A stretch of DNA of 64,000 nucleotides from Spirochaetota bacterium (GTDB taxonomy: Bacteria > Spirochaetota > UBA4802 > UBA5368): NCBI GenBank assembly GCA_004297825.1, contig SCSX01000015.1:62001-126000 (forward strand), in the 5' to 3' direction. The number at the start of each line of letters is the position of its first letter. The first letter of the stretch is position 1. The notes under the pieces are model-generated. The model saw only the letters and a program-made list of their open reading frames with translations. It did no database searches and had not been told where the DNA came from. Below, in pieces: positions 3,693 to 64,000 of this stretch. A program made the translations under genes and the position numbers.

Positions 3693-3759
3693 AAAAATTG
3701 AGTTCCACAACAAGTCTAGTGTGCGCGCATTCACGGGGAACCGCCCGGAAAGAATAGCG

Positions 3760-4920: not shown

Positions 4921-4940
4921 TTTATCCGCCTGCCGCCCGA

Positions 4941-5759: not shown

Positions 5760-5762
5760 GCA

Positions 5763-7684: not shown

Positions 7685-7713
7685 TTGACATGTTATAAGA
7701 CACATACTATATT
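7685..7713 (+). promoter_or_regulatory. Sigma70-type promoter of spoVG
   Basis: A perfect -35 box TTGACA (7685-7690) and a -10 box TATATT (7708-7713) are separated by exactly 17 bases, upstream of spoVG in an AT-rich gap. A second TTGACA (7715-7720) and TATAAT (7728-7733) nearby are only 7 bases apart and cannot form one promoter. Confidence 0.75.
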
Positions 7714-7745
7714 ATTGACAACTACACTATAATGGCGGTACAGGC

Positions 7746-8030: not shown

Positions 8031-8102
8031 CGAGTTAACTTTTTAATTTTATTTATAGCTGCACTACCGGCACGGCATTCCCCGCGGGAGGGAGAACGCG
8101 GG

Positions 8103-8420: not shown

Positions 8421-8482
8421 GTGCGGTGCAACCTCCCTGTAACGATCTGCATCTTCCCTCCCTGAGAAGCGTGTATATAATC

Positions 8483-42259: not shown

Positions 42260-43402
42260 TTATTCTCCTGATTTCTTTATTTTGCTATACGCATCAATAA
42301 TAGCGGTTACGATAACGGTCACATCCTGCATTGTGTTGTATCTGCCGTATGAAATGCGAATTGATGATTTAGCTTGTTTCTCTGACAGACCTAATGCAAG
42401 CAGAACGTGTGAAGGTTCATCTTTGCCGGAGTTGCAAGCCGATCCTGTAGCAATATAAATCCCTTTTAAATCCAACAAATGCATTATTGCTTCGCCATAA
42501 ACATGAGGAAAAGTTACATTCATCGTACCTGGTAGTCGTTCAGCATCGTCCCCGTTGATTCTGATATCAGGGATTTCTGCTCTCAGTCCATCAACGGTTG
42601 CTCTGATGAGAGAAGAGAGCTTTTCTCTCATTTCAATCATATCGGTAACGCTTTCCACAAGTGCATAGCCCAAAGCCACTATCCCTGCTACATTCTCTGT
42701 ACCTGCGCGTTGACCTTGTTCTTGTTCGCCGCCATACACCAACTGAGGCAATGCTAAGCCAGAGCGCCTATACAAAAACCCTGTGCCTTTTGCACCGTTG
42801 AATTTATGTGCAGAAGCAGTCAAGAAATCAACCTGCAAGTTTTTTACATTCACCGGAATGTGTCCAACAGCCTGCACTGCGTCAGTGTGAAATAGAATCC
42901 TTCGTTCGCAAATACGCTTACTAATAGCGGCAATAGGCTGGATTGTTCCAATTTCGTTGTTAGCTAGCATTACCGATACAAGTTTTGTGTTCGGTCTCAA
43001 TGCCATTTCTACATCATCAACCGAAACACACCCGTTACCATCAACAGCTAAGTACGTTACTTCAACTCCTCGGATTTCAAGCGCCTGGCAAGCGTTCAAA
43101 ACAGAGTGGTGTTCAATGGAGGATGTTATGATATGAATCGGATTGTTACTGAACAATATTGAAACGTTCTGAATAACCCAACTGTTTCCCTCAGTTCCGC
43201 CGGAAGTGAAGGTGATTTCGGAAGACTCCGCCCCAATAACTTCTGCAACCTGCCGTCGTGATTGTTCGATAGCTCGTTTTGCTTTCACTCCGAGCGCATA
43301 CTTACTGGATGCATTGCCATATTGCTCCTGTAGAAACGGGAGCATTTTTTTAAAAGCCACATCGGATATTTTTGTTGTAGCTGCATTGTCGGCGTAAATC
43401 AC
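42260..43402 (-). CDS. Cysteine desulfurase (IscS/DndA-like)
   Basis: A 380-residue PLP enzyme that removes sulfur from cysteine and passes it on as a persulfide. The N-terminus YADNAATTKIS, the FTSGGTEGNSW loop, HTDAVQAVGH, the PLP-lysine motif SAHKFNGAKG and the catalytic-cysteine loop GSACNSGKDEPSHVL are all intact. The start is GTG at 43402, 12 bases after the zinc-ribbon gene. It is the last gene of the BREX operon. With a PAPS-reductase-like protein in the same operon, it probably supplies sulfur for DNA modification as DndA or IscS does for DndC, but it could also serve general Fe-S assembly. Confidence 0.9.
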   Translation of the reverse strand: MIYADNAATTKISDVAFKKMLPFLQEQYGNASSKYALGVKAKRAIEQSRRQVAEVIGAESSEITFTSGGTEGNSWVIQNVSILFSNNPIHIITSSIEHHSVLNACQALEIRGVEVTYLAVDGNGCVSVDDVEMALRPNTKLVSVMLANNEIGTIQPIAAISKRICERRILFHTDAVQAVGHIPVNVKNLQVDFLTASAHKFNGAKGTGFLYRRSGLALPQLVYGGEQEQGQRAGTENVAGIVALGYALVESVTDMIEMREKLSSLIRATVDGLRAEIPDIRINGDDAERLPGTMNVTFPHVYGEAIMHLLDLKGIYIATGSACNSGKDEPSHVLLALGLSEKQAKSSIRISYGRYNTMQDVTVIVTAIIDAYSKIKKSGE

Positions 43403-43414
43403 GATTTCATCTCA

Positions 43415-43612
43415 CTAAAATAGTATACAGCCTTGCTCTTTAAATTCTTCAACCTTTGCCAAAAGGAACTCGGTGTCGACCTCCAAGAATTCCGAAAGAC
43501 AATCAATGCAGTAATAACGCTTGGCGTCTTTGTCGATTAACTTTTTAATTAGCCCGATTTCATTTTTGCTCAGGTCTTGCTTCCCGCATACGTAACAGTT
43601 CTTTTTCTCCAT
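43415..43612 (-). CDS. Small zinc-ribbon-like protein in BREX operon
   Basis: A 65-residue protein with two CxxC pairs (CYVCGKQD near the N-terminus and YYCIDCLSEF) that should bind one zinc ion, a helical linker of about 25 residues between them, and a helical tail ending EEFKEQGCILF with a fifth cysteine near the C-terminus. The ATG at 43612 has AGGGG 8 bases upstream and lies 4 bases after the brxL stop. I do not recognise the family. Its place between brxL and the desulfurase suggests an adaptor or sulfur-relay role, which is inference. Confidence 0.75.
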   Translation of the reverse strand: MEKKNCYVCGKQDLSKNEIGLIKKLIDKDAKRYYCIDCLSEFLEVDTEFLLAKVEEFKEQGCILF

Positions 43613-43616
43613 TCCA

Positions 43617-45107
43617 TTACCCCTTTTGCACTTCAGGGTCTGGGCGCACACTAAATACCGGGATATCTTTGCCTCTATACTCTTCATCAAGCACACCAAG
43701 CTGGTACTTAATGGTATCTCTCATCTTACGTGCTCTGTCAAGGCAGTACCTTTTAAATTCACGGGCTGTAATGTCACCGGGCTCACGCACATTTGGGAAA
43801 AGTAGTTTTAAGTAGGCTGTAGCTATACGCTTGACTGCTTCGGTATCACGGGTGTCTGCCGCTTCCGGCACTTCAATAAGTTCATCGACAACAGCACGAT
43901 AACTCATATCTTCACGAAGTTCGTGAAGTACCGAGCAAAAATACTCTGAATTCAAAGCCCAGCCTGCAATTTTAAGGTCATCGTTCATCCGAGGTATGTT
44001 CCAACCTTTAATGAAACCGTGGAAACGCTCTATCAGTGCCGATTCGTGGAACACATTCGGCAATTCTTCAAACATATTGCTGTAACCATCTGCATCCATT
44101 GTTTCTTTTTTAATGTTACCGCAGAGGATTACACCGGCATCGGCAATTCCCTCATAGTTGCCAACTGTGAAAATACCCGATTCGAGGTAACCTTTTAGTG
44201 CCGCGCGCATTTCATCAACATCTGTGAATGATATAGTCTGCACTTCGTCGAGAGTTATAAAATCATTCCCTGATACCAATCCAACCGCTCGTTTATTTTG
44301 ATCATAGAACATCTTTGCTCGGCTCATTATACCTCCGCTTGAGAGCCAACCGAAACGACTTACACGACCAAATAAATACGACTTGCCAGTACCTTTTGGT
44401 GCAAGTTCGATAAGATTCAGTCGCTTTTCTATAAAGGGAAGTAACCGAGTCAGCATAGTCAGTTTTTTTTCATCGTCACCGAGGTAACCGCTCGGATTAT
44501 AGTCTACCGCACTTAAAAGGACATCAAGCCACTCCGATGTTGTAAACTCCCTGCGGGCATCCTTGTAGTAGTCAACATCAATTGTATACGGACAAAATGT
44601 CTTGAAAGTAATCAGTTTAATTTTTCCCCTGTTGGCTCCTTTGGCTCTGTTTTTTAGAAATTCAACATCATAGTCATCAGGCGGGCGATAGCCGATTTCA
44701 ACCATTCCCCATGTTTCACGACCGCGTACCAAATCTTCCTTGCAGATTTGCCAAACGGAATCCTCGATGATAGTGTCTTTGCTTGACAACCCGAAATCAG
44801 GCAAAGCAAAAGAAACTTCTCCCGTTTTGATGTCGATGTCAATAGACACCTTAGCGAGAAATTTTACTCGCTCGTGTTCGATTACCACCTGATTCTTAAT
44901 AGCTGTCCAGTCGTCCTTGCGCGGCAGGTAAGTCCGCACAAAACGAACCAACTCGTCGGAGTCGAAGTGACCGTTCTCGTCCTCGAATTTCTTTAAGAGC
45001 CAGTCACGCATAAAGGAAGGTAGGCTCAGAGCGGAGAAGAAGTTGCTCTTCTTAAGGTCTTTATAAACGACCATCTCGTCAAAGCAATTTCTGAGTTTAT
45101 CAATCAT
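43617..45107 (-). CDS. brxL: BREX protein BrxL (AAA+ ATPase)
   Basis: A 496-residue BrxL-family protein. The N-terminal domain (about 1-220) is followed by an AAA+ core with Walker A APKGTGKSYLFG, the GGIMSRAKMFYD stretch and Walker B NDFITLDEVQT, plus sensor-like LCGNIKKE. It ends about 130 residues after the core, so the Lon-like protease domain of longer BrxL proteins appears absent. The ATG at 45107 has GGAGG 8 bases upstream; the GTG at 45116 overlaps that site and is unlikely. It lies 12 bases after pglZ. BrxL proteins are ring ATPases that bind DNA in BREX defence. Confidence 0.88.
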   Translation of the reverse strand: MIDKLRNCFDEMVVYKDLKKSNFFSALSLPSFMRDWLLKKFEDENGHFDSDELVRFVRTYLPRKDDWTAIKNQVVIEHERVKFLAKVSIDIDIKTGEVSFALPDFGLSSKDTIIEDSVWQICKEDLVRGRETWGMVEIGYRPPDDYDVEFLKNRAKGANRGKIKLITFKTFCPYTIDVDYYKDARREFTTSEWLDVLLSAVDYNPSGYLGDDEKKLTMLTRLLPFIEKRLNLIELAPKGTGKSYLFGRVSRFGWLSSGGIMSRAKMFYDQNKRAVGLVSGNDFITLDEVQTISFTDVDEMRAALKGYLESGIFTVGNYEGIADAGVILCGNIKKETMDADGYSNMFEELPNVFHESALIERFHGFIKGWNIPRMNDDLKIAGWALNSEYFCSVLHELREDMSYRAVVDELIEVPEAADTRDTEAVKRIATAYLKLLFPNVREPGDITAREFKRYCLDRARKMRDTIKYQLGVLDEEYRGKDIPVFSVRPDPEVQKG

Positions 45108-45119
45108 CAATTGCACCTC

Positions 45120-47360
45120 CTAAAACAAGTCATCAAAAGCGTCATTGACTTTGCCGCTCTTGCCTTGCGCCTTAATCATAATCTTGCCAATCAAGTTGTC
45201 ACCCGCGTAAACGTCCGCCGAATAGTCACCTGCCCGTTTTGTGTCGGGCAACTTCACGGAGTAGTGGTTCGCGTCTATCTGCAAAGCTGAGTAGGGTTTC
45301 CCATTCAGGACAATGGAAAGATCCTGCACCGGCGAGTTAAGGAATAGCTTAATCTTCGATCCGGTTTGGATGTCTACGGTTACGATCTCGTCGACCAGCT
45401 TAACCATTACGCTTCCGTCTTTCAGAAACAGTTCAATAACGGGAACGACGACCTCTTCCAAAGACGCCCCGCCGTGAACCTCGACATTCGCTGCGCGGCT
45501 GCCCTTGAAGCGTCCGTAATCGGCAAGTACGAGGTATCCGTTCTGCTCTGCAGCGAACGGGAGATCATAAGGATGAAACAACTTACAGCAACGCCCCGAA
45601 TGCTCGCCTGCGGTATCGGTGTCGTATTTTTCCTCTTTGCGCCGCAGGACAGCAAGCCGTGATGCGCCGTGGTCACTTACAATCAAGAAGCGTTTGCAAT
45701 GCCTTAGCGCAAGTTCCGTAGCCGCCTTGTCTATCATTGCAGTGATGATGTCCAGTTCTTTCGCAAGGTGGAGGGGAAATTCATTATTTGTGAAGTCGTA
45801 ACCGCCCGCATCACTGTGCTTAGTATCATCAAGTTCATCGTTCTTCTCTTTGCGACCTTGCCACGCATCGAAGAAGTCTCTGTTGATGGCCGTTATCGTA
45901 GGAAGTTCCGCACGGGCGATATTGACCCGAACTGACAACCCACGCTTTTGTACTAACGCTTCGATCAAACCTAAATATTCGACACCGAGGGCATCAAGAC
46001 AGTATAGGAAGGTGTCGCTCTTATCCACGCTATCCATAATTTCATTCCGCGTTGGCAGTCTGTTGAACTTCCGCGAAAGAGCAAGCTCATCAACCTTTTC
46101 TAAGAATTCAGGCTCAAGATGGTTGGACAGCTTTTGCCGTTTATACGCCTCGAAATACTCGGACAGCAAGTTTGCCAATTCCGGGCATTTGAAAACGTAC
46201 TTTTCCATGTAGGCCGCTAGCACGGGGTAAATGCCATCGAGCTCCGGAATCATACCGTTTTTCGAGAGCCAAGCAATAATCTCTTCACGCTCCGCTCTTG
46301 TCCCGTCCGTCAACTTATAAATGCTTTCAGGCACCAATTGTCGACTATTCACCACGAAGTCAGCAATATCCGATTCTGGGAACTTCTCGACCAGGGCCTT
46401 ACGCTCACGGTAGAACGAGGCAAATCGCCTGTCGGTATATTGAATTTCGATTATCGCATTAAGAACATTCCCGGCAAAGTCCTCAAAACGGCTCGTCTTC
46501 TCTAGTATGAACCGAAGGTATCCGTTTTGCAATGTGTCAGCTTTGCTCTTTAGGCAAATGAAATAGAGCCAGTTGCGGTAGTCGCTCCCAGCAATGCGGG
46601 CGTAAAAATCCGACTCCATATTCTTGCCAAAATCGTGCTTTTCGAATACCTCGTCTAGCGAGCCGTTGCTCTGGTTGAGTTCTGTCAGCAACTCTGCCCA
46701 GTTAGCGTCATTTCCGCAAGAAGGCGCCAAGGCAAAGCCCCTTTTTAAGAACTTAATGCCCTCGTAGGCATCGCTGATTTGGTGTACCGTCAATATCGAT
46801 TTGTCGAGATTAATAGCAGTGTTTACGACAACACTACCGCACCGTCCATTTTCGAGTTCCGCAAGCATCGCTTTAAAACCCGATAAAGCCGACAATCCGA
46901 CAGACGGGGCAGCAAGGGTAAACGATAAGTCGCACTCCGCCTTGTCGACGACGCTTAGCCGACGGCTGTCAAAGCGTGGGTCTGTCTGCAACCCGTCAAT
47001 CAGCAAGGCAAGCCCTCGCAGTAGCAGCAAAACTTTTACACCGCCGACATTGAGGTCTTTCAACCGCGACAGGGTGCGTATTGCCTCATCACTTCCGCGA
47101 AGCGCAAGAAACTCGCCAAGCCCCGTTACAACGAGCTTTTTCCCGTTTGCCTTTACGTCCTCCGCCTGGATATAGGTGAGGAGTCCGTCGATGTCTGGCA
47201 TTTTGTCGTCACTGTTACAGAACCAGCTCATATGCACGAAATCAAGCCCCAAGACCGATAACTCTTCCATTGCGGTCGTATACTGCCCGTCGCTGATGAA
47301 CAAAAAATATGGCGTTTCGACGGGTGATGTCAGGTATTTTTTTACCGAATCAATTTGCAT
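45120..47360 (-). CDS. pglZ: BREX phosphatase-like protein PglZ
   Basis: A 746-residue PglZ protein. The alkaline-phosphatase-like PglZ core is in the second half: LPTITAINRDFF, FLIVSDHGASRL with the metal-binding Asp and His, and the strongly diagnostic EVHGGASLEEVVVPVIEL. The N-terminal 400 residues are helical and unlike the core. A C-terminal beta-sandwich of about 90 residues follows. The ATG at 47360 has a GGGGG tract just upstream and overlaps the brxC end by 11 bases. PglZ is the signature protein of all BREX systems and its phosphodiesterase role in defence is not fully understood. Confidence 0.92.
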   Translation of the reverse strand: MQIDSVKKYLTSPVETPYFLFISDGQYTTAMEELSVLGLDFVHMSWFCNSDDKMPDIDGLLTYIQAEDVKANGKKLVVTGLGEFLALRGSDEAIRTLSRLKDLNVGGVKVLLLLRGLALLIDGLQTDPRFDSRRLSVVDKAECDLSFTLAAPSVGLSALSGFKAMLAELENGRCGSVVVNTAINLDKSILTVHQISDAYEGIKFLKRGFALAPSCGNDANWAELLTELNQSNGSLDEVFEKHDFGKNMESDFYARIAGSDYRNWLYFICLKSKADTLQNGYLRFILEKTSRFEDFAGNVLNAIIEIQYTDRRFASFYRERKALVEKFPESDIADFVVNSRQLVPESIYKLTDGTRAEREEIIAWLSKNGMIPELDGIYPVLAAYMEKYVFKCPELANLLSEYFEAYKRQKLSNHLEPEFLEKVDELALSRKFNRLPTRNEIMDSVDKSDTFLYCLDALGVEYLGLIEALVQKRGLSVRVNIARAELPTITAINRDFFDAWQGRKEKNDELDDTKHSDAGGYDFTNNEFPLHLAKELDIITAMIDKAATELALRHCKRFLIVSDHGASRLAVLRRKEEKYDTDTAGEHSGRCCKLFHPYDLPFAAEQNGYLVLADYGRFKGSRAANVEVHGGASLEEVVVPVIELFLKDGSVMVKLVDEIVTVDIQTGSKIKLFLNSPVQDLSIVLNGKPYSALQIDANHYSVKLPDTKRAGDYSADVYAGDNLIGKIMIKAQGKSGKVNDAFDDLF

Positions 47361-50300
47361 TCTGTCCCCCCCCATTCGCCAGTATTTCAATCCCGACTGT
47401 TATGCTGTCCTTGACAAGCCGTTTGAGGTACTGCTTTAATTGGGCGTCGTCCATCTCGTCGATTTTCAAGAGAACCTTGTCGCTGCCGCCGGCATTATAC
47501 TCGGCTTCGGCGAGTTGCTTCACCTTGCCCTTGACGCTAGGATTGTCGCGCCAATCGTAAGTGTCTACGGAAAGGTGGTCGAGCGTGTCCCTGACCTTAT
47601 CGAGGTCAGGGAGCAACGGGCTGTATTCACCGACAATATCCCGCTTGAATGCCGTGTTCCGCTTCTCTTCATCCGCAAGGATGCCGAACAGCGTGGTGGA
47701 TTCAAGGAACGCATGAGCGGATTGGATTTCGGAATCCATTCCCCAGTTTCGGTTGAGGGTTTCAAATGCTTTCTTTGCTTTTTCGTATTCAGCTTCGGAG
47801 ACACAACATAGAATAGGTGTCCTGTAGCGGCTCGACCACTCACTAGGGTTTCTCGTTCCCGTCTTGTCTTTCCATAAGCGGAAGAGCTGCGATTTCAACT
47901 GGTTCTTGCGGAACTCCTCGGCAGCTTCTTTTACCTTGACATTACAATCAGTTTTCGATAACTCAAACAAGCCTGTCTGGAGTTTGCTCTTCACATCGGC
48001 GATGTCGTTATCGCTCAAGTCTTCAAGGTACGGCTTATAGACCTCTGCAAAAGCACGTCTGTCGTTGTTCAGCAATTCTCGGATTTCCGCGCCGTGCGTC
48101 TCTAACTCCGGATAGAACGCTTTCAACTGTTCGGGCAGGATATCCTCTTGCTTACAGATTTTCAGGAGCGTGTCGAGGACTTTTGCCAAGTCGGGATACT
48201 TTGCCCGCAGAGCCTCGCACGAGATGCCGATGAACTTCAGCCGCTCGCGCCACTCCTTGTACGCGTCCGTCAAGGAATGACCCGCACTATTCAGGATTGT
48301 ATTGCTCTCTTTGACCACGTTATACTCGGTCAGCAGTTTGCGTATTTCTGTCTCGCCCGTTTGCTTATCCCAAAGGCACGAGTACTCCACTTCGAACAAT
48401 TGGCGAATGTCGGAAAGCACATTATTTTCAGCACCGATTGCCGTTGCAAGTTCCATAACTTTACCGTCCTCAAAGGGGCGGAGATACTCGCGCATACCTT
48501 TCTGGCAGTTCTCGCTTGTGAGCAAAGTAAACAAGTTGTCGGCGAGCGAGGGCTTGGCGGACGCAATCCTGCCGATTTCCACCGCTTTCTTATGAGCCTC
48601 ATGGCCTTCCTTTTGAACAAGTTCAATGTACTTCTGAACCACATCAAAGATTCCGACTGTGTCCACTTCTTCAAGGCACCATACCGGCAGGTTTAGAGCG
48701 CGCATTTTCGTAGACACGGCTATTGCAGCATGTCCTGCGGATGAACACGAATTTGGCTGGATACCCCATGCTTTTTCCGTGAGTTCGTAAAATGCCTTCT
48801 CATCCGCAGTCATCTTCACGATGTAAGTTGGCTTCGCTTTTTTTCCGATGTAATTGCCGATCATCTCCGCAAGTTTATCCTGTGTCATCTGTTCGTGACT
48901 TCCGGATGAATCGCTGTAACGGTAAGGCTCACTGCCGTACTCTTTCAAGAGGAAACCCGTAATTAAGGCCGAAAGGTTACACGGTGCAAAGCCATAGGTT
49001 TCCTCAAGGAAGTCGTAGATTTCGCCGATTGAAATCTGCCCGTCGCGGGCAAATTCGACATCGATCCGCTTGTCTACCTCGACTTTGATTTTTGAGATGG
49101 GCAGTGAAGATGTTGGCGGGCTTTCCCAATACTTATCGATCTTCCAAACGGTCGGAAGGACATGCTTCTCGATGCCGGAAACAACACCACTAGTGGCCTG
49201 CGATATGCCGGACTTTGCCGATTGCCTCATCGCAGGAGTTATCTTCAGTTGGCTCTCTGTGAGGCTTTTTGCGAAATCGAACACGTACGGGAATTTGGTC
49301 ATCACTATGGTCTGGAGGACGCTTGCCACGCCTTGCCCGTTGCCGAGTTTTTCGCCCTCTTGATTTGCGTAGGTGTATACTACAAATTGACCGTTGTAGA
49401 TATGGTTTTTCCAGTTTTGGTCTAAAACACGCTTTGCTTTATCCGAACTTTCCCGCGAGGACGTGTTGTTGCTGCCTTGGTAGTACATCGCCATAGCGGA
49501 GAAGTCCACGTACTGTTCAAACGCCTCCGAGCCAAGCGGTGTAGAGAGCGCGTCGATGAATACGATGTTCTCATACTGCTTATCCGCAACAGCAGTTCTG
49601 AGCGTCTTGCGGAAGCTTGCCGCTTCCACATCGTCCTTGGCAAAGGCGATAACGGCGCAGAAATTACACCCCATGGCTCTGTCGCGCAGGATATTGATTG
49701 TGCGTGTGAAGTCGGCGGTGGTTACGGGAGTGATTTTTCCAGTACCCGGCTCGGACTCAAATCTCAGACGTAGGGCAGGCGAAAGCGACAAAACAGTAGA
49801 AAGCTCACCCTCTGTAACCAGTTTCGAGGTTGTGCTATTCTGTCGCATATCTTTCTTATGGTTGTCGATCTTGGCTTGGTCTCCCGCAAGCACGGCAGCC
49901 GCATAGGCATACCGCCCACCGCTTATCGGGTTCGAAACGAGGATGCCTTTTTCCTTAAGTACTTTCGCGATGTTAGCGGATTTCGTTCCCTCCAAGTCGG
50001 GAATGCCCTCAAAGACATAGCTGAGGTTCTGTTCGGTTGCCTTGAAAAGGTCGATTGTGCCGCCCAACCGCTGATCAATCGCCTGCATACTGAGGATGGC
50101 TTTCAGGACAGCTTTCTCATCCTCACGCAAATTCTGCTGCTGCGGAAAGGTGTCCAGTATTAGGCGAATGCTTGATTTGAGATTATCCCTACCTTTTTCA
50201 TAGAAAAAGTTCCACAGCATATCCACCGTGAGAAGCGGGTGGCCGTCAAAGGGACCCGTATTCTCAATGAACCATTGGAACGCCTTTACATTGTCCGTGT

Positions 50301-51510
50301 TAGAGGATTTGATGAAGTCGAACATACTCCGCTGGTTGGACTTGAACGCAGAGGCTATGTTTTTAAGGAGCAGAGCCGCCATCGGGTGAAGCGGCATAAT
50401 GTCCTTCATCACCTGAAAGTTGTCAATCTTTGCAACCGCCATCACCTTGGAGCAGGAATTCTTGACCCGGTCGTTAAGGTCGTCGGCGAGAATGTCCCAC
50501 TGCGGCTTGGCGGCAGGCTTAACGTTGAAAGCGTGACCGATTAGGTTGAACGCAATGTTGTCAGGCAGGGCAATCTGCACGGGGATGAAGCGGTCGCGTA
50601 CCTTTTTCCAAGTCGTGTCGGCGGTCGTGAACAACTGTCCCGATTCGTGCGTAACGACGATGAAGTAGAATGGCTTTAGGTTCACCAACTCGGCGAGTTT
50701 CTGGAACTCCGAAAGGCTCTCACGGTTGTTCTTAAAGTAATCGGAGAACTCGTCCCATATAAAGACAATCTTTACATTGTTGTGGTCGATAATGTCAATC
50801 AGCCAGGCGATGAGCCTGTCAGCGTCAATATTCAGCGCAGTAATGCCTTCTTTGTCGGCAAGACGGAAGATGTTATCCATCAGCGTCTTGATCTCACCAC
50901 CTTTTCGAAGGGCGTTCAGCACCTCACCAGCAGAGGATTGGCTGAACAAAGCGGCCCACTCCGGCTCTTTCAAAAGCGCGTTGAAGTACAGCTTGTTCGA
51001 AGGCTTGTCAATCCAAGCTATAACGCTTTCCTTCAGAGTGTTCTCGCCTGCGTAAAGGTTTGTCGCTACCAGTGAAGCCTTTAGTGTTTCTTGAACAGCA
51101 AGAAAAAGATCGCGGGGAGAGTCAATCATACCCGAAGCATAACGATAAGCGGTCAGGATACCCTTTTGTTTATGACCGTTGAGCTTTTCGAGCAAGTCGG
51201 TTTTATTTTTCAGCGGCTCGTATCTGTCCCAGTAGGCGCGGAGCTCTTCTTCCGGCACTTCGAGAATTTTTTTCAGAGCATAGGCGCACTGCGACTTGCC
51301 CGTGCCGTATGCGCCCTCAATCCAGAGGGAACGCTTCTCCTGGCGTGCCAACACCCGCTCCATATTGTTCAGCATTTCGATGAACGTGTTGTGCGGGTAT
51401 GTGCGCATCCAGAAGTCCGGGCTGGCGGCGGCGATGGCAGAGTCGTTTACTTGAGGAAAATACTCCTCGTCAATGTCAAAGTATTCGCGGTATTTGTTTT
51501 TAGTAGCCAT
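47350..51510 (-). CDS. brxC: BREX P-loop ATPase BrxC/PglY-like
   Basis: A 1386-residue protein with Walker A GAYGTGKS (residues 66-73) and Walker B KIVFIWDEF (about 246-254). Most of the remainder is helical, with no further domain I can name, as usual for BrxC/PglY. The ATG at 51510 follows AGGGGGA and overlaps the end of the BrxP gene by 11 bases. The family is an essential part of BREX types and is thought to be a large ATPase of the DNA-sensing or modification complex. It sits between brxP and pglZ, as in BREX type 4. Confidence 0.9.
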   Translation of the reverse strand: MATKNKYREYFDIDEEYFPQVNDSAIAAASPDFWMRTYPHNTFIEMLNNMERVLARQEKRSLWIEGAYGTGKSQCAYALKKILEVPEEELRAYWDRYEPLKNKTDLLEKLNGHKQKGILTAYRYASGMIDSPRDLFLAVQETLKASLVATNLYAGENTLKESVIAWIDKPSNKLYFNALLKEPEWAALFSQSSAGEVLNALRKGGEIKTLMDNIFRLADKEGITALNIDADRLIAWLIDIIDHNNVKIVFIWDEFSDYFKNNRESLSEFQKLAELVNLKPFYFIVVTHESGQLFTTADTTWKKVRDRFIPVQIALPDNIAFNLIGHAFNVKPAAKPQWDILADDLNDRVKNSCSKVMAVAKIDNFQVMKDIMPLHPMAALLLKNIASAFKSNQRSMFDFIKSSNTDNVKAFQWFIENTGPFDGHPLLTVDMLWNFFYEKGRDNLKSSIRLILDTFPQQQNLREDEKAVLKAILSMQAIDQRLGGTIDLFKATEQNLSYVFEGIPDLEGTKSANIAKVLKEKGILVSNPISGGRYAYAAAVLAGDQAKIDNHKKDMRQNSTTSKLVTEGELSTVLSLSPALRLRFESEPGTGKITPVTTADFTRTINILRDRAMGCNFCAVIAFAKDDVEAASFRKTLRTAVADKQYENIVFIDALSTPLGSEAFEQYVDFSAMAMYYQGSNNTSSRESSDKAKRVLDQNWKNHIYNGQFVVYTYANQEGEKLGNGQGVASVLQTIVMTKFPYVFDFAKSLTESQLKITPAMRQSAKSGISQATSGVVSGIEKHVLPTVWKIDKYWESPPTSSLPISKIKVEVDKRIDVEFARDGQISIGEIYDFLEETYGFAPCNLSALITGFLLKEYGSEPYRYSDSSGSHEQMTQDKLAEMIGNYIGKKAKPTYIVKMTADEKAFYELTEKAWGIQPNSCSSAGHAAIAVSTKMRALNLPVWCLEEVDTVGIFDVVQKYIELVQKEGHEAHKKAVEIGRIASAKPSLADNLFTLLTSENCQKGMREYLRPFEDGKVMELATAIGAENNVLSDIRQLFEVEYSCLWDKQTGETEIRKLLTEYNVVKESNTILNSAGHSLTDAYKEWRERLKFIGISCEALRAKYPDLAKVLDTLLKICKQEDILPEQLKAFYPELETHGAEIRELLNNDRRAFAEVYKPYLEDLSDNDIADVKSKLQTGLFELSKTDCNVKVKEAAEEFRKNQLKSQLFRLWKDKTGTRNPSEWSSRYRTPILCCVSEAEYEKAKKAFETLNRNWGMDSEIQSAHAFLESTTLFGILADEEKRNTAFKRDIVGEYSPLLPDLDKVRDTLDHLSVDTYDWRDNPSVKGKVKQLAEAEYNAGGSDKVLLKIDEMDDAQLKQYLKRLVKDSITVGIEILANGGGQNAN

Positions 51511-53860
51511 TTGCTGCATCCCCCTTAAATAAGTCGAGTACATCTTGGGACGATTTATCCTCTGCCAGCGTTATTTTTTCAAGGTCGTGCGTGAACGATG
51601 CGGTTATGAACTCAGGGTACTTCGCCGATAGTCCCAACAGGAGCTGCGTCATATCTTCACGGTCAAGCCCGAAGATGCGGGTGGGGCTGATGCCGTCGCG
51701 ATCGATGCTGTCGTTCAGAAGCGTGGCAAGAGTGAACTCCTTATAGTCGTTGCACTTTTCCGCGAACTTGAACAGGCCGTACAGCACCACGCGCGGGTCG
51801 CTCACCGAGCATTTCGTGCGGACGAGGTCGCCCTCATTGGTAACGAAGCCCCAATGCAAGCTTGCGCCGAGTGGTGTCTCGACAAGACGTTTGTAGGATT
51901 TGACGATTGACTTAGCGTCCTTTGGACTGACATCAACCACGGTCAGCATATCCTCGACTGTCTTACGAGCATAGGTTCTGCCGACATCGAAATTGTTTAC
52001 ATACCACTCTATCTGCGGGTTTTCGGCAACAAGGTTGATAAGAATCAGACCTTGCGCCGTGTCCGTTTCCCAACCTATCTGCGCGATTAACTCGGCAAAC
52101 GACGTGAAGTGGTTCTTTTCATTTAGGGAAGCATCCTTAAGGAAACGCCTAAACATATCGAACATCATTGGACCCAGTGAATGCTCAGAAAAGAAAGCCC
52201 CTTTCAGTTCAAAGAATGAGCGCAACCACTCCGGCTTTGGAGCGTGGTCGGCAAATGAGTTCAGGCTTTTCATTGACTTACCTCCTCCTTGTGGCTGGCG
52301 CAGCGAGTGGAACAACAGACAGCCGCTGTCGATTGCGTGGCACTCGTGACACCTGCTACAGTTACTTATTTGGACTTTGCCGTCAGCAAAACTGATACAA
52401 CCATTTCGACAGTTCGTTTCGCAAACTCGGCAACCTTTACAATACGAGGCTTTTCTGAATACCTGTCGGAACATTTTCCCGAATACGGGTCGCTCTTTCA
52501 GCACAACCTCCGGGATTGTTACGATGTAGCCGTTCTTTGTCGCCTTAACGGAAGCCAGAATGTATTCGCCGTCAAATTGAACGTAGTAGCCACCGTTACC
52601 GCCGCGTAAATCTCCGAGCGTTTTTATCCATTCCAACCAGTCGGAATCAGGGTCAGTAATGGTTATAGTCAAATTTCCATTTGTAATCTTTTCAATGCAA
52701 CGGAAAGTATTGTTCGATAACTCGCGCCCATTCTTTCTGGCGTTCCAGCCGCCGTTTAGGATATACGATTCGATGTTGCTCTTACTTCGCTTGTCCCCAT
52801 CGTAGGTCTTCTTAATCGAATCGATATAGCTATCAATCTCTGCCGGATAGCTCGCTCGGCGTAAGTAGTCGCTTGTACCGCCCGACATAGGGCAAAACAA
52901 ACATCCGGCACGACCATTGCCCTTCTTATAGGTTTCGTTAATAAGCACATCGTTCGCGTATATATAAAGCCATATCTCGGCAGATGTCCATTCGAGGATT
53001 GAGTTATGGCTGAACTGGCCCTTTTGTTTTGCGCCATAGTTCTCATAATTGTAAGTGCTTCGAGCAACGCTCTCCTGGGCCCGAACTCCAACAAAGTCAA
53101 GGCCGATAAAATTGTTATTGCCAGTTACATCTCTCAACTTCAACGTCTGCGGAGTGCTTTTATGCACCGAGCAGCACCAACGGAGCACACGTGACGGGGG
53201 GCCGAATAATTCCCACGATTCCTTTGGGTTGAGGTGCGACTTGCCAATGTAGAACGGTATCTCGTCCGCGGCACATTGATGTTTGGTCTTTTTGATGACT
53301 TCGTAGGTGTCGGGGAACTCCATGCCCGTGTCGCCAAATACCACAACGAAGCTGCCTTTGGGCAGGGCTTTCTTAACCAGGTCGAGCAGGACACAACTGT
53401 CCTTACCGCCCGAAAACGCTACATGGAAGCAGTCGAGCCTATCCTTGTACTTATTGTAGACAGCCAGTATTTTCTTGACCGTGGTCTGCTCGATGATTTC
53501 AAGCATCTCACGGTTTACTTCAACCGTAGCCTCTATGTCAATGGGGCGAAGCGATATGCCTTTAGGTTCTGGCATTATCGGTTTGCCGTCCTCGCCGTTC
53601 GGAATGATAATCTCAGGGGCGGTTTTGATATTGCCGCCTTTCAGCTTTGCAACAAGTGTCCCGCGATAGTAATAACTGTTCGCCTCCGCCCACATATATG
53701 GGCGGTCGGTCTGCTTGTCGTACTTCCAATACTTTTCAAAGCCCAGCACGTCCAATTCTGGCGCGTAAACCGGGCGAGGTTCTTTGGAGAATCCGGTCGG
53801 CGAGGAATTAAGAAGTATCCCACCCGCTTTCTTGTCGTAGGTATACGAGTACAATTTCAA
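51500..53860 (-). CDS. brxP: BREX type 4 PAPS reductase-like protein BrxP
   Basis: A 786-residue multidomain protein. After an N-terminal region that includes a phage-type PAPS reductase leader (KYWKYDKQTDRPYMWAE), the ATP-pyrophosphatase loop FSGGKDSC is at residues 149-156. Cysteines in VLRWCCSVHK and GCLFCPMSGG could hold the Fe-S cluster seen in DndC-like enzymes. A second cysteine-rich part (CKGCRVCETNC, CSRCHEC) resembles a 4Fe-4S ferredoxin domain. The last 240 residues look like a DUF4007-type domain. The probable start is TTG at 53860, overlapping the upstream stop by 4 bases. By analogy with DndC it would activate DNA for sulfur insertion. Confidence 0.88.
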   Translation of the reverse strand: MKLYSYTYDKKAGGILLNSSPTGFSKEPRPVYAPELDVLGFEKYWKYDKQTDRPYMWAEANSYYYRGTLVAKLKGGNIKTAPEIIIPNGEDGKPIMPEPKGISLRPIDIEATVEVNREMLEIIEQTTVKKILAVYNKYKDRLDCFHVAFSGGKDSCVLLDLVKKALPKGSFVVVFGDTGMEFPDTYEVIKKTKHQCAADEIPFYIGKSHLNPKESWELFGPPSRVLRWCCSVHKSTPQTLKLRDVTGNNNFIGLDFVGVRAQESVARSTYNYENYGAKQKGQFSHNSILEWTSAEIWLYIYANDVLINETYKKGNGRAGCLFCPMSGGTSDYLRRASYPAEIDSYIDSIKKTYDGDKRSKSNIESYILNGGWNARKNGRELSNNTFRCIEKITNGNLTITITDPDSDWLEWIKTLGDLRGGNGGYYVQFDGEYILASVKATKNGYIVTIPEVVLKERPVFGKMFRQVFRKASYCKGCRVCETNCRNGCISFADGKVQISNCSRCHECHAIDSGCLLFHSLRQPQGGGKSMKSLNSFADHAPKPEWLRSFFELKGAFFSEHSLGPMMFDMFRRFLKDASLNEKNHFTSFAELIAQIGWETDTAQGLILINLVAENPQIEWYVNNFDVGRTYARKTVEDMLTVVDVSPKDAKSIVKSYKRLVETPLGASLHWGFVTNEGDLVRTKCSVSDPRVVLYGLFKFAEKCNDYKEFTLATLLNDSIDRDGISPTRIFGLDREDMTQLLLGLSAKYPEFITASFTHDLEKITLAEDKSSQDVLDLFKGDAANGY

Positions 53861-55335
53861 TCCATCCTTTCTCGTATGGCTCTCGCCTTATCGATAATTT
53901 CGTTAACTTGTGCGGTTGTCTTTCTACCCGTGTAGCCGCTCTCATACAGGAACTTGCCCACGGCGGCTTCCTTCAAGGGAACGTCGGCATTCGCCACGGC
54001 ACAGGTCATAATCTCCGTATAATCCATGCCACAGCTTTTGCGGATAATTGCTCCGGCGTTCCGAGAGTTAACCGATGGGGTACCAAACCGAAACTTCCGA
54101 CTGAAGCGGCGGCAGTAGCTTTCAAGTATAAACAAATTCCACGTCTGACCGCAGTCGGGGAACGCTCCGAATGTGGTGAAAGACTTAAGCGGAAGATAAT
54201 CTCCCTTAACAAACAGCCCAATTGCTTCGTCGATTATGTCGGCGTTGAAGTGAACATATTTATCCGCCAAATATGTGTCTTTATCAATACGAACCAGAAC
54301 GGTGTTACCCGCTTCCATCGGAATCCAACGGTGCGCTTCACCCGTCAGTTCACGTTCAAAGTTAAGCAGTTCTTGCAGTGTGCATTTCTCCAAAGAGCGA
54401 CAATGTTCTTTCATAATTGACAGCGCATCGAGCGTGTCACCTTTACTCATTACTATTTTGCCGCGTCTATCGTATTTGTCCGCAATAATGATTTCAAACG
54501 TCGCGTTGCGGACGGCCGTGAGTGTTAGTTCGCAATTACGCTCCACAATTTCTCCGAGCGGAATGTCACTCAGGGAAGCATACCCGCACTTACGATAAGC
54601 CATCGCGACATAATTCGTTATGGCAGCGCGCTCTTCATCGTTAATGTCTACACTGCTGATGTGTGTGTACACGCCTTCGCTGTTCCAAATGAAGTCTTTG
54701 TTTTGCGCCAAAACGTTCTTTATCTTGTCAACGGGAACGTATGGGAGCCGTTCCGAAAGCTGCTCGTAGCTTAAGAGAACATCAGCGCCCCATACGCGAA
54801 GTACCTCTCTTCTGACTTTGCTGAGTACATGGCCGCTTTGCATTTGTAACGCAAAGTATTTCATCGTGTGCGCAAATCGAGGGCACAACTTCACAAGGAT
54901 GTTTTTAAGCATATCCTTGGAGATTATATTCGCCGAGAACAGCCAATCCTCATTTTTCTCGTAGAAAGCACTATAGAATATGACTTCCGCTCCCTCGGTC
55001 ATCGCCGTATCTATTTCGCTCTTTATTCTATTAGTGACATTTGCCCCGACAATATACAGTTTTCCGTCGAATAGTGTTCCACGAGACAGAATAGCTGAAT
55101 TGAGTTCTTCATCGGATAAATCAATCTCCTCACCGAAATCTTCTGCTACAAACTTGCGAAGACGAAACAATTCTATCGGTGAACCGCTCCTGAATCCGTT
55201 TAGAAAATGCTCCCTCAGAGTTTTTATAAGTATGTTGCCAAGCTGTTCTTCGTCTTCTTTTTTCACATCGACTCTTCCGTTTATCATAATTGGAGAAGTG
55301 GTATAATTGATAGTAGAAATGTCGTAATCTACCAA
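53857..55335 (-). CDS. Unrecognised 492-residue protein heading the BREX operon
   Basis: I do not recognise this family. The product is soluble, with segments that look like repeated winged-helix units (SYEQLSERLPYVPVDKIKNV, ELNSAILSRGTLFDGKLYIV). A C-terminal helical region ends KTTAQVNEIIDKARAIRERM. No catalytic motif is obvious. The likely start is TTG at 55335 with AAAGGA 9 bases upstream; the next ATG (55287) has no ribosome-binding site. Its stop overlaps the brxP start by 4 bases, so it is coupled to the BREX genes. A DNA-binding or regulatory role is a guess from the helix pattern and its first place in the operon. Confidence 0.72.
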   Translation of the reverse strand: MVDYDISTINYTTSPIMINGRVDVKKEDEEQLGNILIKTLREHFLNGFRSGSPIELFRLRKFVAEDFGEEIDLSDEELNSAILSRGTLFDGKLYIVGANVTNRIKSEIDTAMTEGAEVIFYSAFYEKNEDWLFSANIISKDMLKNILVKLCPRFAHTMKYFALQMQSGHVLSKVRREVLRVWGADVLLSYEQLSERLPYVPVDKIKNVLAQNKDFIWNSEGVYTHISSVDINDEERAAITNYVAMAYRKCGYASLSDIPLGEIVERNCELTLTAVRNATFEIIIADKYDRRGKIVMSKGDTLDALSIMKEHCRSLEKCTLQELLNFERELTGEAHRWIPMEAGNTVLVRIDKDTYLADKYVHFNADIIDEAIGLFVKGDYLPLKSFTTFGAFPDCGQTWNLFILESYCRRFSRKFRFGTPSVNSRNAGAIIRKSCGMDYTEIMTCAVANADVPLKEAAVGKFLYESGYTGRKTTAQVNEIIDKARAIRERMD

Positions 55336-55728
55336 TTGAATAATCCTTTCTTAAATCAGACTGTCTATGGCAAATACATACACCAGACGGGGAAATTACT
55401 ATTTATCAACCATAAAAATTGGCATTTTCTGAAACTATTAAACCTCGCGAATGATAAATCCAACTAATAGACTCTAAACGGAGATTCTGGCTTTTCCAAA
55501 TTCATAAATGCGGTCCAGCAGTCAAACAAATGCGAAGCATCCCTCTGCCAGTACGGGGATAGATTAGTGATAACACCCCCGCGCAGACGTTCTGCGCAGC
55601 CCTCCTCTGCCATAGGGCTCCGGGATAGCCTCTAATCCTCCCCGGATTTTTCGAAAAATTTTTTTAAAATTCCCCCCCCTCATTCGTATACATACCAGTC
55701 ACACTAATTTAATCAAATGGAGTTTGCC
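55336..55728. other. AT-rich intergenic region upstream of the BREX operon
   Basis: This 393-base gap separates the minus-strand BREX operon from a plus-strand gene. Its right part has the perfect hairpin GCGCAGA-CGT-TCTGCGC (55582-55598), the palindrome TTTTTCGAAAAA (about 55645-55656) and homopolymer runs of T and C. On the minus strand TTGGAT and TTTAAT, 15 bases apart, near 55430-55460 are a weak promoter candidate for the operon. No gene was seen. Confidence 0.4.
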
Positions 55729-56346
55729 ATGTCGAAAGTTAAATTTATCTCAGTCCTCACCGAGAGCCACGGGCGCATGAAGGATGTCGTCTTCAAGACC
55801 CGGAACGGGCGCTCAACCATGTACCAGTACGAGAAGCACACGCAGGACCTTACCGCCAACCAGGAAAAGGTCCGCAAAGCCTTCGTGAAGCTCGTGGACG
55901 ACTGGAAACAGTTGAGCCCCCTTGTCCGCAAATCATGGGACGGGCACGGCGAGAACCCCAACGCGAGCGGCTACAACATCTTCATAGGCGACAATTCGCC
56001 CCGCCAGATGGCCGCGGAGCCACTTCGGCTCTCGCGGAAGCTGGGGGAGGAGCGGCTCGCGGATTTCAAGGCGACGCCGGGAGGCGCCGCAGGACAGATC
56101 TCATGCGGCTTCGCGCCGGTGAACGGTGACAGGCACCTCGCCTTTTTCGTACAGGAAAAGGCGAACGGCGTTGCCACCGGTTCCCTGGAGCGTCATGACG
56201 GGGGCGCGAACTGCGCGTCTCCCTTCATCGTAACGGGGCTCAACCCCGGGATGGAATACTTCGTGTACGCCCTGGTGACTGATAAGGCCTACCACGAGGC
56301 GATGCTCGTCTCCGAGTCCGTGGGGATGCTCACCACGGCCGGCTGA
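55729..56346 (+). CDS. DUF6266-like protein, paralogue 1
   Basis: The ATG at 55729 has GGAG 6 bases upstream and gives 205 residues (MSKVKFISVLTESHGRMKDV). The N-terminal 90 residues have the pattern of the DUF6266-type proteins: an HGRMKDVVFKTRNGRSTM strand pair, then an Ala-x-Gln/Lys-rich helix, W-K-Q-L-S-P, and ASGYNIFIGDN. The second half is a fibronectin-like domain (CASPFIVTGLNPGMEYFVYA). The N-terminal part is paralogous to the gene at 56757. Function is unknown; a strong terminator follows, so it is a single-gene unit. Confidence 0.68.
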   Translation: MSKVKFISVLTESHGRMKDVVFKTRNGRSTMYQYEKHTQDLTANQEKVRKAFVKLVDDWKQLSPLVRKSWDGHGENPNASGYNIFIGDNSPRQMAAEPLRLSRKLGEERLADFKATPGGAAGQISCGFAPVNGDRHLAFFVQEKANGVATGSLERHDGGANCASPFIVTGLNPGMEYFVYALVTDKAYHEAMLVSESVGMLTTAG

Positions 56347-56756: not shown

Positions 56757-57353
56757 ATGAAAAACGATATCTCAATAATCCTTCCCCCGTACATCCGCGC
56801 GATCGTGACGGAGGCCCACGGCAAATTCGGGGGGTATGTCCTGTGCACCAGAAACGGCAGGATCTTCCCACGGAGGCATTTCATCCCACCCAACCCGCGC
56901 ACCGCGAAGCAGCAGGCCAGGCGCGCCCTCATGGCCTCCGCGGTGCGGCACTGGCGGAGACTGGACGAAAACAGGAAGCTCCCTTGGAAACGGGAAGCGG
57001 CGGCGCTCGGGAGGACCGGGTATCACCTGTTCATAAGCGTATTCATGGACAGGACTGGACGCCGTAGCGGGTCCGTTTCCCGCATTCAATTAACTGCTTT
57101 CGGCGCTTCACCCTCCCCCGGCCCCTCCCATCAAGGGAGGAGAGTTGTCCGATTAAGCATTCACCGGCACTTCCAACCAGTCGCGAACACGATGTTCGCG
57201 GCGGCCACCGCGATTTCCGCATCCTGCGGGCAGTGGCAGGCGAACATCGTGTTCGCACGCCACTGCAAGCCATGGACGGCTTATCAGGGGCCGCGAGCGG
57301 AACGCACATTTAATCACCAGCCGTTATTGAGCATCCGGCTTCTTGTACATTAA
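56757..57353 (+). CDS. DUF6266-like protein, paralogue 2, with repeat-derived tail
   Basis: The ATG has GAGAGGAAACC upstream. The first 100 residues align by eye with the gene at 55729 (HGKFGGYVLCTRNGR, the Ala/Gln/Arg-rich helix, W-R-R-L, and TGYHLFISVFMD). From about residue 115 on, the frame runs through dispersed repeat sequence (57102 onward), giving a Pro/Ser-rich then Ala-rich tail unlike any domain. The native gene was probably shorter or was cut by repeat insertion, so the stop at 57353 may not be original. Function unknown. Confidence 0.55.
   Translation: MKNDISIILPPYIRAIVTEAHGKFGGYVLCTRNGRIFPRRHFIPPNPRTAKQQARRALMASAVRHWRRLDENRKLPWKREAAALGRTGYHLFISVFMDRTGRRSGSVSRIQLTAFGASPSPGPSHQGRRVVRLSIHRHFQPVANTMFAAATAISASCGQWQANIVFARHCKPWTAYQGPRAERTFNHQPLLSIRLLVH
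57102..57145 (+). repeat. 44-bp GC-rich repeat, copy 1
   Basis: GGCGCTTCACCCTCCCCC and the following CCCCTCCCATCAAGGGAGG match, in reverse orientation, the stretch at 61117-61160. The two differ at only a few bases. The repeat is a short hairpin unit and lies within the tail of the open frame at 56757. Confidence 0.65.
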
Positions 57354-61290: not shown

Positions 61291-62010
61291 ATGAAAATGT
61301 CACTTATCATATCCGGGCTCATCATGCTTTGCGCGGCAGGCGGGTACGCCGCGGCGGAGGACGTGAAAAAGCCGGCCGAGGAAACCCTCTTCAAGAAGGC
61401 AGTGGCGTACTACTACCAGCAGAAATTCGAGATGGCCGAGCTTATGCTCCAGGAGGAGCTCAAGACCAACCCGGAGAACGCCCTCGCCTACTCGTACCTG
61501 GGCGACATCTTCCTGCTGAAAAAGCGCTATGACGGGGCCATGGACCTCTACCGCAAGGCGGTGGACCTGAATCCCTCGAGCGCCGAGGACCATTTCCGGA
61601 TCGGCCAGATATACTATTACAAGAAGGACGGCAAGACCGCGATCGAGGAGTTTCGCAGGGCGTTCGAGATCAACGAGAACATCAAGTACGCCTACTACCA
61701 CATGGGCCTCTCGTACCTCATGCTCATGCGCGACAAGAAGCAAACCATCGAGTGCTGGGAGACGTACCTGCGCATCGCGCCCGAGGATCCCCAGCACGAG
61801 AAGATCCGCCGCGTGATCGAGCTCCTGAAAGACCCCAACTTCACGATCCCCCCCGTGGGCAGCGAAATATCCATTGAGGAGGCCCTGCACCTGGGCGGCG
61901 CCGTGCTCAAGGAGACCGCGCACCAGACCGAGGACAAGAAGGCGGGCCACGAGAAAAAAAAGACCAAGGACACGATGGAAGACGTATACCGCGACGACGC
62001 GTTAAAATAA
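61291..62010 (+). CDS. Exported TPR-repeat protein
   Basis: A 239-residue protein with a signal peptide (MKMSLIISGLIMLCAAGGYA) and about four TPR units (KAVAYYYQQKFEMAELMLQ, YSYLGDIFLLKKRYDGAMDL, HFRIGQIYYYKKDGKTAIEE, YYHMGLSYLMLMRDKKQTIE), followed by a charged tail (HEKKKTKDTMEDVYRDDALK). The ATG at 61291 has AGGGTGG upstream and is preferred over GTG 61282. It is followed 16 bases later by the large TPR protein gene, likely one operon. Confidence 0.82.
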   Translation: MKMSLIISGLIMLCAAGGYAAAEDVKKPAEETLFKKAVAYYYQQKFEMAELMLQEELKTNPENALAYSYLGDIFLLKKRYDGAMDLYRKAVDLNPSSAEDHFRIGQIYYYKKDGKTAIEEFRRAFEINENIKYAYYHMGLSYLMLMRDKKQTIECWETYLRIAPEDPQHEKIRRVIELLKDPNFTIPPVGSEISIEEALHLGGAVLKETAHQTEDKKAGHEKKKTKDTMEDVYRDDALK

Positions 62011-62026
62011 ATCCCGGAGGGCCTCA

Positions 62027-64000
62027 ATGTATTACGACCGTTCGCGCAGCATCAAGATGGTGGGCGCGGGAGCCCTTGTAGCGCTCTTTCTCCTGGGCGG
62101 CTCCTACCTGCTCTACAAGAATTTCAGCAACCCGGCGAAGGACGTGCCCGACCTGCGCTACGAGCAGATCGAGCTTTTCAAGAAGCTGCTCGCGACCGAT
62201 CCCACGAACGTCGAGTACCTCATGAAGATCGGCGGCCTTTACAAGGCCCTGGGCGAGTACGACAAGGCAATCGATTATTTCAAGCGCGCCCTCAAGGAGG
62301 ATCCCAACAACTACGCCGCGCTCACGGAGCTGGGTCACGCGTACGCCCTCAAGGGCGATTTCGACAGCGCCATAGCCACACTCGAGCTCGCGAAGAAGAA
62401 TTTCCCGAAAAATCCGGCCGCGTACAACAAGCTGGGCGGCATCTATGAAAGCATGGACAAGCTGAACAAGGCGATCGACGAGTACAGGGCGGCCATCAAG
62501 GTCGCGCCCCAGTACCAGGAGAGCTACTGGAACATCGCGAAGAACAACCTCAAGACGGGCGACACCAAGGGCGCCGTCGATATCGTCAACCAGGGGATCA
62601 AGGCGAACCCCAAGGACCCCGAGGGACATTACAACCTGGGAAACGTGTACATGGGCGAGAACAGGTTCGCCGATGCGCTCGGCTCCTTCAAGAAGGCCGT
62701 GGCGCTGGATCCGCGCGTGTCCAAGTACCACCGGGGCGAAGGGGAAGCGGACCTGAAGCTGGGCCGCACGGACGACGCGATCGCCGCATTCAGGCGCGCC
62801 CTGGACGCCGACAAGGCCGACGCGATGGCGGCGGAACGACTGGGCGACATCTTCGCGCAGGCGGGGGATTACGAAAACGCGCTCAAGAACTACACGCAGG
62901 CGCTCAATTACAACGGCAACGACAAGAATTTACAGGATAAGTACAATTTCGCCTACGGCAAGGTCAACGCCGCGAAGAAACCGGCGGACGGCAAGGTTCG
63001 GGCCGATAAATCCGGCGTGGACCGGGGCGGCGAGGATATCGGGGAGGAGAAGATCCCCGGGGTGAAAAAGCCGAAAGACGGCGATTCCAAGTGGCGCGAG
63101 ATGGGGGACAAGTACCGCGAGGAAAAGGACTACGACAACGCGGTAAAGTCCTACAAGAAGGCCATCGCCCAGGACCCCATGGACGACTACTCCCATTACT
63201 GGATGGGAAGGATCCATTACCACAACAAGATGGACGAGGAGGCCAAGAAGGAATTCACCGAGGCGGCCACCCTGAACCCGCAGAACGCCGACGCGTTCTA
63301 TCGCCTGGGAACGATCAACCACATGGAGGGCCGCTACGATACGGCAGTCCGGAATTTCAGCAAGGCCGTAGAGATACAGCCCAATTTCCCGCGTGCCTAT
63401 TATTCAAGGGGCCTCTCTTATTATAAGCAGAACGACCAGGGACGCGCAATCCAGGACCTGAAAACGTCCATCCAGCAGGACCCCCAACTCGACAAGGCCT
63501 ATTTCAACCTGGGCACCATCTATCTTAAAAACAAGAACTTCCAGGAGGCGCTCAACAACTTCTCGCGCGACAAGGAGCTTCGCCCCAACAATCCCGATAC
63601 CAATTTCAAGCTGGGCGAGACCTACCACGAGATGAAATCCTACGCCAACGCGGTGCAGTTTTACCAGAAGGCCATAGAGGCCGATCCCTCCTATTCCCAG
63701 GCCTATTTCAACATGGGCCTTATCAGCTCGGAGCGCAAGCAGTTCCAGGAATCGGTGGGATATTTCGAAAAAGCGCTCAACGTGAAATCCGAGGATGCGC
63801 CCTCCTATTACGAACTGGGCAAAGCATACGAAGGACTGGGGAACGAGAATAAGGCGATCGAGAGCTACAAGCAGGCCATAAACAAGAACCCCTCCTATTC
63901 AGCCGCGTACCTGAACCTGGGCAATATCTACGCCAAGAACAAGCTTACCGACAAGGCGATAGAGCTCTTCAAGAACGCGACCACGAACGATCCGCGGTCG
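62027..64000 (+). CDS. Large membrane-anchored TPR protein, partial
   Basis: The ATG at 62027 follows GGAGG by 6 bases, and the frame is open for 658 codons to the window end. An N-terminal membrane helix (about residues 12-30) is followed by a first array of about seven TPR units to residue 310. A charged linker without repeats (about residues 315-345, rich in Lys/Gly/Asp) comes next, then a second array of at least eight units. The TPR pattern is clear (for example ALGEYDKAIDYFKRAL and GEYHEMK-type helix pairs). It is probably a scaffold for envelope or secretion complexes, cotranscribed with the TPR gene upstream. The C-terminus lies beyond the window. Confidence 0.85.
   Translation, partial: MYYDRSRSIKMVGAGALVALFLLGGSYLLYKNFSNPAKDVPDLRYEQIELFKKLLATDPTNVEYLMKIGGLYKALGEYDKAIDYFKRALKEDPNNYAALTELGHAYALKGDFDSAIATLELAKKNFPKNPAAYNKLGGIYESMDKLNKAIDEYRAAIKVAPQYQESYWNIAKNNLKTGDTKGAVDIVNQGIKANPKDPEGHYNLGNVYMGENRFADALGSFKKAVALDPRVSKYHRGEGEADLKLGRTDDAIAAFRRALDADKADAMAAERLGDIFAQAGDYENALKNYTQALNYNGNDKNLQDKYNFAYGKVNAAKKPADGKVRADKSGVDRGGEDIGEEKIPGVKKPKDGDSKWREMGDKYREEKDYDNAVKSYKKAIAQDPMDDYSHYWMGRIHYHNKMDEEAKKEFTEAATLNPQNADAFYRLGTINHMEGRYDTAVRNFSKAVEIQPNFPRAYYSRGLSYYKQNDQGRAIQDLKTSIQQDPQLDKAYFNLGTIYLKNKNFQEALNNFSRDKELRPNNPDTNFKLGETYHEMKSYANAVQFYQKAIEADPSYSQAYFNMGLISSERKQFQESVGYFEKALNVKSEDAPSYYELGKAYEGLGNENKAIESYKQAINKNPSYSAAYLNLGNIYAKNKLTDKAIELFKNATTNDPRS

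Follow-up and report, generated by a model that had tools for sequence, protein, structure and literature searches.

A BREX type 4 operon of a Spirochaetota bacterium and its little-described tandem winged-helix gene

Seven close-set genes in a Spirochaetota genome very probably form, as judged from their sequences, a full BREX type 4 operon for phage defence whose marking chemistry is phosphorothioation. The operon is a known kind of system and the sulfur mark is not a new idea: a 2026 paper had already reported its cysteine desulfurase and its small zinc protein for the type, and its little-described gene is the first one, hereafter X. We propose that X is an exchangeable recognition adaptor or subunit of the restriction arm of the system, a reading to which we give a little under an even chance.

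The operon and its BREX type 4 core

The window, i.e. the whole stretch of 64,000 nucleotides analysed, has on its minus strand (42260-55335) seven long open frames. In the direction of transcription they read X, brxP, brxC, pglZ, brxL, zn and cd; together with the region 5' of them, they are as follows:

Leader: 55336..55720, minus strand, AT-rich, probable promoter region 5' of X; consensus match weak
X: 53857..55335, minus strand, 492-aa tandem winged-helix protein (predicted), first gene of the operon; without a family in Pfam, NCBIfam, PADLOC or PHROGs
BrxP: 51500..53860, minus strand, PAPS-reductase/PP-loop domain (SGGKDS), CC...CxxC, ferredoxin-like 8-Cys region and C-terminal DUF4007 (SspB/BrxA-like)
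BrxC: 47350..51510, minus strand, AAA+ ATPase with Walker A GAYGTGKS, type 4 form, distantly SspC-like
PglZ: 45120..47360, minus strand, BREX-4 type, alkaline-phosphatase core with SDHG and HGG motifs
BrxL: 43617..45116, minus strand, short form with BrxL_N and AAA ATPase, without a Lon domain
Zn: 43415..43612, minus strand, small Cys4 (CxxC...CxxC) zinc-ribbon-like protein, 65 aa
CD: 42260..43402, minus strand, NifS/IscS-class cysteine desulfurase, closest to DndA/SspA/NifS models

With starts set at codons that follow Shine-Dalgarno-like sequence, no spacer or overlap between the seven genes exceeds 12 bases, which bears out the first-pass annotation in treating them as one operon. Where it had also claimed clear ribosome-binding sites or stop-start overlaps, Shine-Dalgarno-like runs are present before six genes; the desulfurase gene is the exception, its upstream GTGAGATG being weak, and three starts were shifted, namely those of BrxC (likely ATG 51510, not 51543), PglZ (likely ATG 47360) and Zn (likely ATG 43612, giving 65 rather than 94 aa). 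The other likely starts are TTG 55335 for X, TTG 53860 for BrxP, GTG 45116 or ATG 45107 for BrxL and GTG 43402 for the desulfurase. Scans for promoters and terminators gave matches at chance level only.

The four genes that follow X were recognized as the BREX type 4 set in the first-pass annotation, and profile searches agree. With PADLOC models, BrxC scores 2282 bits (PDLC02485), PglZ 885 bits (PDLC02554), BrxL 761 bits and BrxP 873 bits over 779 positions (PDLC02510), the last against 30 bits with DndC. Further, PglZ matches the NCBIfam BREX-4 PglZ exception model NF033445 at 567 bits (cut-off 140), and BrxL matches TIGR02688 at 392 bits (cut-off 329) along with PF13337 and PF20442. The C-terminus of BrxP is also matched by the standalone 265-aa BrxP model (E=1.9e-6), its similarity to Pfam DUF4007 lying below the cut-off (E=0.0034), and 36 homologues all keep the SGGKDS motif, C229-C230, C320xxC323 and the eight ferredoxin-like cysteines unchanged. 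No gene for PglX or another methyltransferase is present within the operon, as had been noted from the start, and the gene complement is that which characterizes BREX type 4: a type 4 PglZ, BrxP in place of PglX, BrxC and BrxL.

Of 38 further genomes searched within the order of the host, only one gave a long (300-residue) BrxP match; horizontal acquisition is thus most likely, and the Spirochaetota genome probably gained the operon in this way. The GC content of the operon and its 5' leader is 43-51%, compared with 51-66% for most of the window. The annotated flanking genes are chromosomal in character (MFS, patatin, HD and DnaJ) and are accompanied by two uncharacterized plus-strand ORFs without a Pfam match (55717-56346 and 56757-57353). 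A search for flanking repeats around the operon found none, and when an empty insertion site was sought in close relatives, the flanking genes had no usable counterparts there. The last 2 kb of the window (62001-64000) show a strong AT skew of 0.293.

Sulfur marking and the desulfurase

The type 4 passages of NAR 2026 gkag035 call BREX type 4 a DNA phosphorothioation system, name Yuan et al. (Nat Commun 2026;17:1717) as having demonstrated phosphorothioates and report a desulfurase in 255 of 457 taxa, frequently accompanied by a gene for a small zinc finger; brxPCZL has likewise been counted as one of three known phosphorothioate-making gene families (PMC11931770). The sulfur-based mark suggested in the first-pass annotation thus holds for the type by this literature and is hence not new. 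We infer from the system type, to which the published work pertains, that the mark is also made in this organism. A new sulfur-based system was rejected as a candidate, since those same passages already cover phosphorothioation by type 4 and its link with a desulfurase.

The closest resemblance is to published BREX type 4 (brxPCZL), the described part of which has the same order of BrxP, BrxC, type 4 PglZ and BrxL without PglX; the desulfurase and small zinc protein reported for many loci are present here too. To this the window operon adds X, of which we found no description in the main-text type 4 passages of NAR 2026 gkag035. Relative to SspABCD-SspE, the desulfurase is SspA-like, BrxP resembles a fusion of SspD-like and SspB/DUF4007-like parts and BrxC matches SspC weakly (79 bits), whereas SspE is missing, with PglZ and BrxL in its place and X in addition. 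Relative to DndABCDE(-FGH), the desulfurase is DndA-like and the PAPS-reductase protein distantly DndC-like at the 30 bits given above, but DndB, DndD, DndE and DndFGH are missing and an AAA+ BrxC stands against an ABC ATPase. Membership in the Dnd or Ssp systems was rejected: none of the seven proteins matches SspE, DndB/D/E or DndFGH.

The desulfurase scores 444 bits with the PADLOC DndA model and 441 bits with SspA, and both its PLP lysine (SAHKF) and its catalytic cysteine loop (TGSACNSG) are intact; against the DndA equivalog TIGR03235 it reaches 324.7 bits, under the cut-off of 480. On these profile matches its class is certain and its status as a DndA equivalog is not. We infer a flow of sulfur from desulfurase to BrxP to DNA, with BrxC, PglZ and BrxL as the restriction arm. 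The cysteine desulfurase would draw sulfur from cysteine and hand it to BrxP, the PP-loop of which would activate the DNA phosphate while its iron-sulfur centres would help insert the sulfur as phosphorothioate, the choice of site falling to the DUF4007 arm of BrxP and the AAA+ ring of BrxC. Unmarked DNA would trigger the BrxC-PglZ-BrxL arm, for which X would act as the invader- or site-recognition adaptor, as a winged-helix chain with a front part swapped between systems.

It is very improbable that, behind an intact operon sequence, phosphorothioation is inactive here, that the sulfur genes only load the Fe-S clusters of BrxP and that BrxP modifies in some other way. Such a reading could draw on the architecture of BrxP, which according to the type 4 passages of NAR 2026 gkag035 has an extra ferredoxin-like cysteine region and is without the DndC-specific cysteine pair, as well as on a desulfurase that is dispensable (present in 40 of 46 distinct loci) and evolves independently of BrxP (r 0.16-0.27, from non-independent pairs). 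However, the papers cited above present phosphorothioates from BREX type 4 as published, and housekeeping desulfurases can substitute for a missing one, the host genome itself having three further desulfurase homologues.

Type 4 loci across genomes and the place of the Cys4 gene

A BrxP scan of genome contigs, in samples of limited extent, recovered 56 loci from Bacillota, Spirochaetota, Thermodesulfobacteriota, Synergistota, Chloroflexota, Planctomycetota and Bacteroidota and from one archaeal MAG; two further samples, picked by the type 4 PglZ family, gave hits in 7 of 393 genomes from the same phylum and in 14 of 397 that belong to the same family as the L014 genome. With duplicate records removed for the distinct counts (L173=L025, L181=L006, L182=L034), X lies directly 5' of brxP in 57 of the 63 distinct loci with upstream sequence (60/66 overall), and the full order X-BrxP-BrxC-PglZ-BrxL-Zn-CD recurs across phyla. 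These two observations exclude chance. A decayed or fortuitous cluster of sulfur-metabolism genes beside BREX genes is therefore a reading with practically no probability left: nothing was found in its favour, all frames are open with their catalytic motifs present, and the same gene order is found in dozens of genomes from many phyla.

The six loci without an X profile match before brxP (L177, L178, L045, L054, L168, L169) seem for the most part to hold a divergent version of it, with one sub-lineage lacking it. L177 and L178 have a long ORF at the X position, that of L177 containing HARE-HTH and SAM-like modules and showing weak profile similarity, and L045 likely has a divergent X (hhalign E 3.5e-7). 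L168 and L169, which constitute the sub-lineage, are truly without X and presumably work without it; X as a universal BREX-4 gene is thereby ruled out. Their order (L168 4828-16569, L169 5087-16789) is BrxP-Zn-BrxC-PglZ-BrxL-205-aa gene-desulfurase, with a shorter BrxC of about 1170 aa; the additional gene, some 205 aa long, is without a Pfam match.

Several other loci deserve mention in their own right. The type 4 operons of L171 and L180 are apparently decayed, with no more than a fragment of BrxC (L171) or PglZ (L180) left upstream of BrxL, Zn and the desulfurase. Flexilinea flocculi encodes, besides L023, a second and divergent BREX type 4 operon with a divergent X of 1179 aa (L110, G402:C3:1118000-1136000). 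Two viral-classified IMG/VR contigs (L072, L074) contain X-BrxP-BrxC-PglZ, which suggests either carriage on mobile elements or mis-binned host DNA.

The zinc gene is present in every locus with enough downstream sequence (48/48; 46/46 distinct), compared with 42 of 48 (40 of 46 distinct) for the desulfurase, and its position varies within the operon but is never outside it. Being both mobile and retained in more loci than the desulfurase, it appears to be a core part; the Cys4 protein is thus probably not the desulfurase's companion. The proposal in the first-pass annotation that the three extra genes are dedicated parts stands in that all of them travel with the core, but they are not of equal standing: the desulfurase and zinc genes, found beside BREX genes in relatives as expected, had already been reported, while X is little-described.

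The first gene: fold, history and possible role

Searches of PADLOC, Pfam, NCBIfam and PHROGs gave no family for the X core, and no PDB sequence matches it significantly. An AlphaFold2 model built on a 47-sequence alignment (pLDDT 92.5) shows a repeating helix-helix-helix-hairpin pattern, from which the core is predicted to consist of about six winged-helix units in tandem; the protein probably binds DNA. The nearest solved folds in Foldseek are winged helices of UFL1 and SelB (E 1e-5 to 1e-3), with TM-scores of 0.13-0.37 that are low enough that only the repeated winged-helix class is secure. X is comparable to the multi-winged-helix recognition modules of DndG, SspB, BrxA and FokI (Rakesh et al. 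2024, PMC10853773) in being a tandem winged-helix, fast-evolving protein in a DNA-modification defence system; those modules have three domains against about six in X and no sequence match to it.

Relatives of X carry N-terminal extensions of about 50 to 900 aa, which include a Cro/C1-type HTH (L010), integrase-type SAM-like domains and HARE-HTH. In L037 the extension is disordered in part and is predicted to contain one alpha+beta domain, and Foldseek with this longer model returned nothing beyond the first search. The window X, shorter than most relatives, is the minimal form without an extension; truncation was ruled out, as it has a good ribosome-binding site before its TTG start, the full 452-position core and similar short forms in L016, L028 and L052. 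Two X homologues occur in other settings. The contig of L041 has, 3' of its BREX-4 desulfurase gene, another X-like gene that is partial (573 aa, 134-192 bits; L111, G407:C53:1-15000, 359-10222) and adjoins type I restriction genes for an N6-methylase, a RhuM-like protein, HsdS and HsdR. An orphan, divergent homologue of 917 aa (L071/L075, G367:C30:494-3244) lies on a 3.8-kb contig without BREX genes and has RNA-polymerase alpha-CTD-like and sigma-70 region-4-like segments at its front.

The history of the window X differs along its length. Against the nearest relative, L037, the operon DNA is 85-90% identical up to 54587 and similarity is lost beyond; correspondingly, residues 321-490 of X are 85% identical and residues 28-300 about 48-51%, with BrxP at 93%. 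Trees of the two parts conflict, the front grouping with L014 (support 98) and the back with L037 and relatives of the latter. A tree constrained to place the front in the L037 group is rejected (AU p=8e-74), as is one that joins the back to L014 (AU p=8e-5); the constraint groups were named after the identities had been seen, which makes these p-values optimistic, but the log-likelihood gaps of 95 and 54 are large. By this conflict and these rejections, the window X is, at the level of sequence, a natural recombinant with its front two-thirds exchanged, such that the nearest relative of the front is not that of the back third. Among close pairs (BrxP at least 78% identical), a sharp front/back break is seen for the window copy; it is chiefly the variety of N-terminal extensions that suggests recurrent swapping of X.

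Across 37 complete loci, whose pairs are non-independent, mean pairwise identity is lowest, at 0.32, for both the PglZ N-terminal half and X. The identity of X correlates most strongly with that of the BrxC C-half and of the PglZ N-half (r 0.92 for either); for the desulfurase no close correlation is seen (r 0.16-0.45). Both properties of X would be unexpected in a simple operon regulator, i.e. a DNA-binding autorepressor or activator that keeps costly defence genes in check from outside the defence complex, and so would a multi-domain core of 490 aa with up to about 900 aa more in front. Such a regulator is nonetheless what the position of X as first gene, the Cro/C1 HTH at the front of L010 and the polymerase- and sigma-like segments of the orphan outside BREX might lead one to expect; on balance we consider it rather unlikely. 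For the recognition adaptor that we favour, type I restriction systems offer a parallel: their specificity subunits are swapped much as proposed for the front of X, with its winged helices and HTH/SAM/HARE-type extensions. We further advance, more tentatively, the fuller proposition that BREX type 4 has in X a core subunit not described before, one whose recombination-swapped front sets the target of BrxC-PglZ, with the Cys4 protein as another universal core part and not a helper of the desulfurase.

If X is a swappable recognition part, it would offer a direct handle on the unsettled questions of how BREX recognizes phage DNA and what triggers PglZ. Similarly, if the Cys4 protein, found in every locus scored, belongs to the core, then the minimal set for reconstitution of BREX type 4 would be larger than brxPCZL.
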